A program made the position numbers and the translations under genes. A stretch of DNA of 64,000 nt from Nitrospirota bacterium (GTDB lineage: Bacteria; Nitrospirota; Leptospirillia; Leptospirillales; Leptospirillaceae): NCBI GenBank assembly GCA_021826965.1, contig JAKAYA010000002.1:1-64000 (forward strand). The letters run 5' to 3'. This document shows, one piece after another, positions 16,103 through 19,304 of this stretch. The notes beneath the pieces are model-generated. The model made no database searches, was not told where the DNA came from, and saw nothing but the letters and a program-made list of their open reading frames with translations. The number at the start of each line of letters is the position of its first letter. The stretch's first letter is position 1.

Positions 16103-16978
16103 ATGAATATTGGTATTATCGGTACACGTGGACAACTCGGTGCAGACCTCTGCCTGAATGCTTCGGAGAAGGACAGAGTGGAAAAGCTTGATCGCCCGTA
16201 TTTCGACCTTGAAAACCCCGCACATTTAAAAACGTTGGATTCTCTTTCTCTGGATGTCCTTATAAATACGGCCGCATATAATGATGTCGACAAGGCAGAA
16301 GAGGAGATCGGGGAGGCTTTTCGTCTAAACTCCGAAGCCCCCTCCAGACTTGCTGGCTACTGTCGTAAGAAAGATATCCTTTTCATCACATTCTCGACCG
16401 ACTATGTGTTTGGCGAATATGAGGAGAAAAGGGAATTCCGAATGCCTTTTCAAGAGACGGATGAAGCTCGTCCTCTTTCCGTTTATGGAGTTTCCAAGTG
16501 GGCAGGTGAGTGTATGGTTCTAAACAGAAATCCGGATGCCCTTGTTATAAGAACGTGCGGGCTTTATGGGCGTCATCGCGGAACTCACCTCAAAAGAAAT
16601 TTCGTTGAACTGATGCTTCAGTTGGGACGTGGGGATAAGACTCTCCGTGTTGTTTCGGACCAGATTGTGACTCCAACTTCAACATGGGATTTGTCACAAA
16701 ATACATACAAATTGATTCAGTGTTCTCCAAAGGGAGGACTCTATCATATGACAAACGAAGGAGAATGTTCCTGGTTTGAATTTGCAGAAACGATCTTCAA
16801 TATGGTGAAGCTGGCTCCGGATGTCCGGGCAGTTCTTCAATCTGAATATGGCGCCAAGGCCCGGAGGCCCTCTTATTCCGTTTTGTCAAAGGAAAAGGTC
16901 GGGAAGTATGGGATCCATTTTCAGACATGGGAGAAAGCATTATCGGATTATCTGTCGACATCTTCCGTCAAGCCTTAG
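16103..16978 (+). CDS. dTDP-4-dehydrorhamnose reductase (RmlD family)
   Basis: RmlD reduces dTDP-4-keto-L-rhamnose, the last step of dTDP-rhamnose synthesis. The 291-residue product has the Rossmann start MNIGIIGTRGQLGADL. It has the family FSTDYVF and the catalytic YGVSKWAGE (YxxxK) segments, then RTCGLYGRH and VVSDQIVTPTSTWDLS. No rmlA, rmlB or rmlC lies in the window, so the exact sugar substrate is inferred. Its stop overlaps the stop of convergent otsB by three bases. Confidence 0.85.
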   Translation: MNIGIIGTRGQLGADLCLNASEKDRVEKLDRPYFDLENPAHLKTLDSLSLDVLINTAAYNDVDKAEEEIGEAFRLNSEAPSRLAGYCRKKDILFITFSTDYVFGEYEEKREFRMPFQETDEARPLSVYGVSKWAGECMVLNRNPDALVIRTCGLYGRHRGTHLKRNFVELMLQLGRGDKTLRVVSDQIVTPTSTWDLSQNTYKLIQCSPKGGLYHMTNEGECSWFEFAETIFNMVKLAPDVRAVLQSEYGAKARRPSYSVLSKEKVGKYGIHFQTWEKALSDYLSTSSVKP

Positions 16979-17790
16979 GGGTTTGAGTCAACAAGTCTCC
17001 AGGATTGTTTCAGCCATTCCCAGACATGATCCGGTGAGGAAAGTCGAGCAGGATGGGGAAGAGACGAGTCGGGCAGGTTGTCTCCAACCCAAATTCCATG
17101 TCCCCCCAGATGGATTGCCATCTTGATGGAGTTCCAGTCTGTCGTGTCATCCCCGATCATGACAGGATAAGGGCCGGATCCGGATAATGTCCTCCGGTCT
17201 TCTGGTTCATCCGAGAGGCGTTGGAGAAACCATTGCAATGCGGATTCCTTGTTGATTCCAGAATGCCGGAATTCAAAAACGCATTTTCCAGCCTTCATTT
17301 CCAGATTCTCTGGATGTACCTGTCGGAATGTTTTTTCTATAACTCCAAAAAACTCTTCATGTCGTTCGATCGCCAGCTGTCGATAATGCAACGATAGACT
17401 GAACTGCTTGATTTCCAGATAGGCTCCTGGCCATTCATCCGTTATTTCCTTGAGCAGTGTGGCAAGAGGAAGAATTTGTTCCCGGGCGCTTTCCGCGTTC
17501 GGGTCCGCATGGACTTTTCCCTTGTATATTCTGGAAGCGCCATGATCGCCGGATACGCCGGACAGCTCTTCGATCGGAAGCCTTTTGCGAAGATCGGGGA
17601 TTGATCTTCCGGACAAGACGAAAACCGGTATTTGTAAACAAAGGAATCTCAGAAGCCTGAGGCGATTTTCGGGCAGGTGGACAGAATCCGGTTTTTCCTG
17701 AATTGGGGCTAACGTTCCATCAAAATCAAGAAAGAGCGCTGCATTCTCCGGGTCGTTTAAAAGAATTTCGGAACGGATCTGTTTATCGAT
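16975..17790 (-). CDS. otsB: Trehalose-6-phosphate phosphatase, non-canonical start
   Basis: OtsB dephosphorylates trehalose-6-phosphate to trehalose. The frame has the HAD motif I DFDGTLAPI, motif II FVLSGRS and motif III GDDTTDW. Read from the ATC at 17790 it gives 271 residues, a normal length. Between the upstream in-frame stop and DFDGT there is no ATG, GTG, TTG or CTG. The ATC lies seven bases after a perfect AGGAG and 14 bp after the otsA stop, so an ATC start is proposed. The first canonical start (TTG 17616) would remove the catalytic aspartates. A -1 frameshift from otsA or a sequence error are alternatives. Confidence 0.82.
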   Translation of the reverse strand: MDKQIRSEILLNDPENAALFLDFDGTLAPIQEKPDSVHLPENRLRLLRFLCLQIPVFVLSGRSIPDLRKRLPIEELSGVSGDHGASRIYKGKVHADPNAESAREQILPLATLLKEITDEWPGAYLEIKQFSLSLHYRQLAIERHEEFFGVIEKTFRQVHPENLEMKAGKCVFEFRHSGINKESALQWFLQRLSDEPEDRRTLSGSGPYPVMIGDDTTDWNSIKMAIHLGGHGIWVGDNLPDSSLPHPARLSSPDHVWEWLKQSWRLVDSNP

Positions 17791-17804
17791 TGCAGATCTC
17801 CTGC

Positions 17805-19304
17805 CTAAAGGTTTTCAAATAGCCGGAAGACCCATCCATACAGGTTCATCTGTTCGATTTGACGATTGAGAACCTTGTTGCGCTGAACTTTCTTCCCAAA
17901 GGACTCCGACAAGCCGGTATTCAGCTGTCTTGCAGAATACACGGGATGGTAGGGATCGATCTGAAGGGCATCCTGCAGGGCAAATGCGGAACCGGTATGG
18001 CAGCTCAGGAAAAGAACCCCGTCCCCGTTGCCCTGGCATGAAAGGAATTCCTGCGCAACCAGGTTCATTCCATCATTTGTGGAGGTGATCAGTGCGCCGG
18101 AAGCCATCTTGTAAAGTGCCGAAAGATGTGTCTGGGGAAGTGTTGTCTCAATGGAATGAAGCGGGAGCCAATCTTTCGTTGTCCATTTTTGATTGAAGGC
18201 TTTGATACGTTCTCGCAGGACTTCCTGATACTTTTTGTACGTCCTTTGTCCTGATCGCGTGGGAACAGCAATCTGGACAAAGGAGATCTTTTCTTTCCAT
18301 TGAGGATAGATGGTAAAAAAACGATCCAGAATATTGAGCCGTTCAAAAAGGCCTTTGGTATAGTCCATCCGGTCGACAGAAATGACATAAGGAATTTCCG
18401 TCGGAACACCCGCATTTTCGAGAAATTTCTTGGCCGCCACAATGTTCTCCGTTTGACCGGCCATCCGCCTGAAATGCTGCGGATCGATTCCGACAGGCAT
18501 CACTACGACCTTGATCTGCCGTCCGTTCCACTGGACGACATTCTCCCGGAGAACTTCCGCTTCCGGAAGAAGAGTCAGAACTGTTTTGAAGAAAAGGTCG
18601 AGATGCAAAGGTGTCTGAAACCCGACGATGTCATGGGAAAGGATACCTTCAAGGACGGATTGCCATTCCGGAAGGAGCATGAAGTCTGCAGGGTTGGGCC
18701 AGGGAATATGGCAGAAAAAGGCGAGTGGAGGAAGATTCTCGGTGGATTCCCGTCGGATCCAGTGTGCAACCCGAGTCAGCTGATAGTCGTGGATCCAGAC
18801 GATTCCGGGGCGCTCTTTACGAAAGGAGTCCATGACTTTTTTGGCAAAAATCTGGTTCACTCGGTCATACTGAATGAAATCTCCCGGATCGTGAAAAAAC
18901 TGATCTCTGTTTCCGTGGAAGAGAGGCCAGAGCGTACCGTTCGAATACCCGTCATAGAAAGGTTTTTTTAACGAGTCCGGGATATTGACTCTTTCGAGAA
19001 GGTATCCCGGGCCTTTCCCGGAAGGAACCATCAGGGTAGCCGGGCCGGCCGAGTCTCGTGACGCGATCCAGACTCCTCCCAATCGTTCGAGAAGGGCGTG
19101 CAGAACCTGGCTGACACCACCGGCCGGTCTTTTGAAATCCTGATTTTCGGTATAGACGATAGGTTCCCGGTTCGTCACGATACAGACAGGTGCATTGCCC
19201 AAAAGGTTTCGGCTGATGGACTGGATGCTTTCGATGGTCCGGATAGCTGTTCTTTGTCCGGAAGACATCCGGACATGTCCTTGAGACTTCGTCGCTTGAT
19301 TCAC
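17805..19304 (-). CDS. otsA: Alpha,alpha-trehalose-phosphate synthase (GT20)
   Basis: OtsA joins UDP-glucose and glucose-6-phosphate to form trehalose-6-phosphate, a compatible-solute precursor. The 499-residue product has the glycine loop GGVSQVLHALLE near residue 62 (donor phosphate binding), WPLFHGNRDQF, VWIHDYQLTRV, FFCHIPWPNP, MPVGIDPQHF, VDRMDYTKGL and the C-terminal SCQGNG region. The start is GTG behind AAAGGA. The N-terminal 35 residues are extra compared with E. coli OtsA. It follows the GT4 gene by 43 bp and is followed by otsB. Confidence 0.95.
   Translation of the reverse strand: MNQATKSQGHVRMSSGQRTAIRTIESIQSISRNLLGNAPVCIVTNREPIVYTENQDFKRPAGGVSQVLHALLERLGGVWIASRDSAGPATLMVPSGKGPGYLLERVNIPDSLKKPFYDGYSNGTLWPLFHGNRDQFFHDPGDFIQYDRVNQIFAKKVMDSFRKERPGIVWIHDYQLTRVAHWIRRESTENLPPLAFFCHIPWPNPADFMLLPEWQSVLEGILSHDIVGFQTPLHLDLFFKTVLTLLPEAEVLRENVVQWNGRQIKVVVMPVGIDPQHFRRMAGQTENIVAAKKFLENAGVPTEIPYVISVDRMDYTKGLFERLNILDRFFTIYPQWKEKISFVQIAVPTRSGQRTYKKYQEVLRERIKAFNQKWTTKDWLPLHSIETTLPQTHLSALYKMASGALITSTNDGMNLVAQEFLSCQGNGDGVLFLSCHTGSAFALQDALQIDPYHPVYSARQLNTGLSESFGKKVQRNKVLNRQIEQMNLYGWVFRLFENL

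Follow-up and report, generated by a model that had tools for sequence, protein, structure and literature searches.

A probable AUC start codon for otsB and predicted family-wide AUU starts for csrA in the Leptospirillum family

The trehalose-6-phosphate (T6P) phosphatase gene otsB in the window, the whole 64,000-nt stretch of DNA analysed here, raises a simple question: where does its translation begin? The features that pose the question are as follows.

16975..17790 (-): otsB, T6P phosphatase, 271 codons from the proposed ATC plus a TAA stop
17814-16975 (-): the open otsB frame, running from just after an in-frame TGA to the TAA at 16975
17815..17817 (-): the in-frame TGA that closes the otsB frame upstream, from codon reading
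17713..17727 (-): DFDGT, catalytic HAD motif I, which any otsB start must precede
17614..17616 (-): TTG, the first canonical in-frame start, internal to otsB, at which the ORF listing opens

By family profile OtsB is classed as a trehalose-6-phosphate phosphatase, matching PF02358 over positions 1-196 of 235 with 101 bits and TIGR00685 with 119 bits (cut-off 68), and the match includes the DFDGT motif I. From the TGA at 17817 to DFDGT, the frame reads AAA CCT TTA GGC AGG AGA TCT GCA ATC GAT AAA CAG ATC CGT TCC GAA ATT CTT TTA AAC GAC CCG GAG AAT GCA GCG CTC TTT CTT, in which none of ATG, GTG, TTG or CTG occurs. Initiation at TTG 17616 would delete motif I, the nucleophile motif with its catalytic aspartates, and an in-frame ATG at 17835 is cut off from otsB by the TGA. 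The lack of an NTG codon before DFDGT implies that otsB has a non-standard start, that the sequence is wrong, or that the gene is dead.

A non-standard start is the preferred reading, with otsB probably translated from a near-cognate AUC at 17790. The features at this position are listed below.

17788..17790 (-): ATC, the proposed otsB start codon, identified by AGGAG spacing, a coding-score maximum and a shared alignment column with the ATG starts of relatives L007 and L009
17798..17802 (-): AGGAG, the putative Shine-Dalgarno (SD) sequence of otsB, spaced 7 nt from the ATC and within the 5-9 nt at which AGGAG mostly lies before called starts of this genome
17805..19304 (-): otsA, trehalose-6-phosphate synthase by profile match, with a TAG stop 14 nt upstream of the ATC

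An earlier note on this DNA had described the absence of NTG codons before DFDGT and both distances, 7 nt from AGGAG and 14 nt from the otsA stop, and all three agree with the present reading. An AGGAG precedes 13.5% of called starts in this genome at a distance of 4-11 nt, versus 0.8% of internal ATH codons. Three ATH codons lie between the TGA and DFDGT and only that at 17790 is preceded by an SD. The hexamer coding score, accumulated upstream from the stop, reaches its maximum of 57.0 exactly at ATC 17790 and stands at 51.3 at the frame opening. In a retrained, stricter model otsB scores weakly and its overall maximum falls inside the gene, with a local peak of 31.0 at 17793 versus 30.9 at ATC 17790. 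When OtsB N-termini are aligned, the ATC shares a column with the ATG starts of L007 and L009, each start standing nine residues ahead of LLxDP.

The same genome contains a further near-cognate start in infC, which encodes IF3. This gene reads AGGAGG AATTCT ATT AAT CCA, a spacing of 6 nt from SD to ATT, and no NTG start is present at its 5' end. Among relatives the infC start is ATC in three genomes (G001, G002, G004) and ATT in the others, with the ATT of G008 preceded by a CTG codon. The near-cognate start of infC is present in distant bacteria and is autoregulatory, whereas the ATC of otsB occurs in one genome only. In E. coli infC starts with ATT and in Streptomyces with ATC, and IF3 represses such starts (PMC5472188); these genes resemble otsB in placing ATT or ATC after a strong SD. 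Streptomyces sigR is, like otsB, a single non-infC gene relying on a near-cognate start, and IF3 repression sets its ratio to its partner (PMC5472188). Its GTC start is experimentally proven, whereas the ATC of otsB is predicted.

As in infC, no NTG codon precedes the essential N-terminal motif of otsB and a strong SD (AGGAG, 7 nt) stands at normal spacing from an ATH codon. A non-NTG start conserved in related genomes, which both infC and csrA display, is not seen for otsB. Its start is ATG in every family relative whose otsB 5' end could be read, so the conserved ATC for which the earlier note proposed to look is absent, the nearest OtsB (L002) being only 53% identical. The N-terminal extension of OtsB is poorly conserved among relatives, and in L002 and L015 the start is 8 residues ahead of DFDGT. 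No second genome of the same species or genus was found among the genomes searched, and the base at ATC 17790 is therefore unconfirmed by a second strain. Searches with otsB peptides yielded no second copy of the locus in the genome contigs or viral contigs, and plasmid OtsB homologues are only 31-35% identical among the best records listed. The ATC initiation put forward in the earlier note thus gains from SD spacing, the score peak, the alignment and the ATT/ATC starts of infC and csrA, while the lack of conservation and the possibility of a base error weigh against it. On sequence grounds, otsB is a probable rather than an established near-cognate-start gene.

The comparison with csrA gives a larger and stronger result than the otsB ATC and raises the interest of the whole. 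Two csrA copies are present in the source genome (loci L164 and L183), both reading AAGGAGG TCTGAC ATT TTA ATC CTG ACG.

G000:C40:16842 (-): csrA copy of the source genome, ATT start
G000:C6:1867 (+): csrA copy of the source genome, ATT start

The N-terminus of CsrA proteins is MLILTRK or a close variant, with the ATT falling exactly at the invariant Met. Across the family, 17/20 csrA loci (L164-L183) carry ATT, usually after a purine-rich SD, with one ATA and two ATG; counted by genome these are 16/19, 1/19 and 2/19, respectively. A second, named collection was searched with a pattern allowing I or M at the start position. Its Leptospirillum-family loci start with ATT in 10/12 cases and ATG in 2/12, and all 68 csrA of other bacteria among the 80 matches listed start with ATG. 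Elsewhere in the phylum, outside this family, each readable csrA starts with ATG, TTG or GTG. As ATT is present in nearly all family loci and NTG in those read outside, the predicted csrA ATT start is a conserved trait of the Leptospirillum family. Sequencing error does not account for it, since it recurs in many independent assemblies, including the single-contig G004. In the part of the literature searched, no report of a csrA AUU start or of a near-cognate start in Leptospirillum was found.

The csrA loci also differ in their surroundings. The family's largest genus (L170-L182, e.g. L175 from 1498) carries an in-frame csrA-fliW fusion, with PF02599 and PF02623 in a single protein of about 230 aa. 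FliW is a known antagonist of CsrA. No report of a CsrA-FliW fusion was found in the literature covered by a partial search. Several L170-L182 loci have a flgL-like ORF ahead of csrA, separated from it by 25-29 nt. In the source genome the flgL-csrA segment exists as two diverged copies (G000:C6 and G000:C40), reflecting either paralogy or a bin that includes a second strain.

For otsB, the alternative that survives best, itself fairly unlikely, is an error in sequencing or assembly, or else a minor strain variant. The true codon at 17790 may be ATG, which a single change of C to G at 17788 would place at exactly the right position, or a one-base error may hide another start, for instance within GGAGAATGCAGCGCTC near 17743, if a single G is missing after its ATG. 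The draft state of the assembly (107 contigs, 89% complete) and the ATG starts of otsB in relatives favour such an error. However, a start near 17743 would have its SD only 1-2 nt away, and near-cognate codons are by themselves no sign of error because the ATT starts of infC and csrA are genuine, confirmed by many independent genomes.

It is very unlikely that the start codon was lost in a decaying otsB that is no longer made, with trehalose supplied by TreY/TreZ. TreY is present in the genome (872 bits) and offers another trehalose route, and the low codon score of otsB in the retrained model would also fit decay. Against this, the frame is open over 271 codons with intact catalytic motifs and a strong family match, and the SD and its spacing are preserved. 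Moreover, otsA is intact and no second T6P phosphatase was found in the searched part of the genome (1.95 of 2.22 Mb, taken as regions), so the loss of OtsB alone would trap T6P.

The earlier note also offered a -1 ribosomal frameshift from otsA, which would occur close to its 3' end and yield an OtsA-OtsB fusion. The open otsB frame reaches 17814 and overlaps the final otsA codons, and fused OtsA-OtsB enzymes exist as family NF011071; this route is nevertheless highly improbable, as any slip is confined to GAA AAC CTT TAG (17814-17805) with no X XXY YYZ heptamer there, the coding score drops upstream of ATC 17790, OtsA ends at its normal domain end, and otsA ends in its own stop in the relatives where both genes were located. 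Use of another in-frame codon, whether ATC 17778, ATT 17766 or ATG 17835 with readthrough of TGA 17817, has a next to negligible probability, as none of them has an SD within usable range, the coding-score peak lies at 17790 rather than at these codons, and readthrough of this TGA is without support.

Initiation at AUC 17790 can be placed in the context of the otsA-otsB junction. The 14-nt spacing is ordinary, since relatives with both genes located range from a 4-nt overlap to +58 nt, and it is compatible with translational coupling. Immediately after termination, ribosomes can initiate again at a start lying downstream, and an SD aids them (PMC2268962). The coupled pairs of relatives have the same gene order, but their otsB starts are ATG and mostly lack an SD, whereas otsB here has ATC with AGGAG. 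In the proposed mechanism, AGGAG 7 nt upstream would place ribosomes at AUC 17790, probably helped by otsA termination 14 nt upstream through coupling or re-initiation. The initiator tRNA would read AUC with a third-position mismatch, and IF3, known to disfavour codons of this type, would keep the level of OtsB low relative to OtsA. From these features we infer that otsB is really initiated here, is coupled to otsA, yields little protein and is controlled by IF3, and csrA may likewise be held down by IF3. A species-level, low-efficiency, otsA-coupled start is hence a plausible description of otsB.

A first genome-wide list of genes without an NTG start consisted mostly of antisense shadow frames and was discarded. 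In a genome-wide count of SD-preceded codons with the retrained model, ATH was not enriched over other codons, so individual near-cognate cases are claimed here and not a global excess. Several further genes have unusual 5' ends. At G000:C51:100177 (+), a 174-aa protein with a signal-peptide-like N-terminus and homologues in most relatives lacks an NTG start, and has ATT (or ATC just before it) closely after AAGGAGG. In dnaG (G000:C30 (-), about 22759) no NTG precedes the zinc-binding domain, and the candidate codon is an ACG located 6 nt after GGGAG, with a GatB/YqeY-like gene just upstream. Probable CTG starts after AAGGAG are present at G000:C20:25987 (-) and G000:C58:19274 (+), the products being a CcsA-like membrane protein and one whose N-terminus resembles a signal peptide.

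True ATT- or ATC-start genes are very rare and often mis-annotated (PMC5472188), and in a survey of start-codon changes one of 61,358 ancestral AUG starts had switched to AUU (PMC5622118). By itself the otsB ATC is a modest, single-genome case that adds one likely example to this small number. For the family as a whole, we tentatively suggest that the AUU/AUC starts form an IF3-sensitive set comprising infC, csrA (fused to fliW in one genus) and, in this genome, otsB, in which the output of CsrA and OtsB may be tied to the level of IF3. Annotation software that accepts only NTG starts will shorten Leptospirillum csrA or overlook it. A family-wide csrA ATT alongside the ATT/ATC of infC would allow control of a global RNA-binding regulator by IF3 to be tested.
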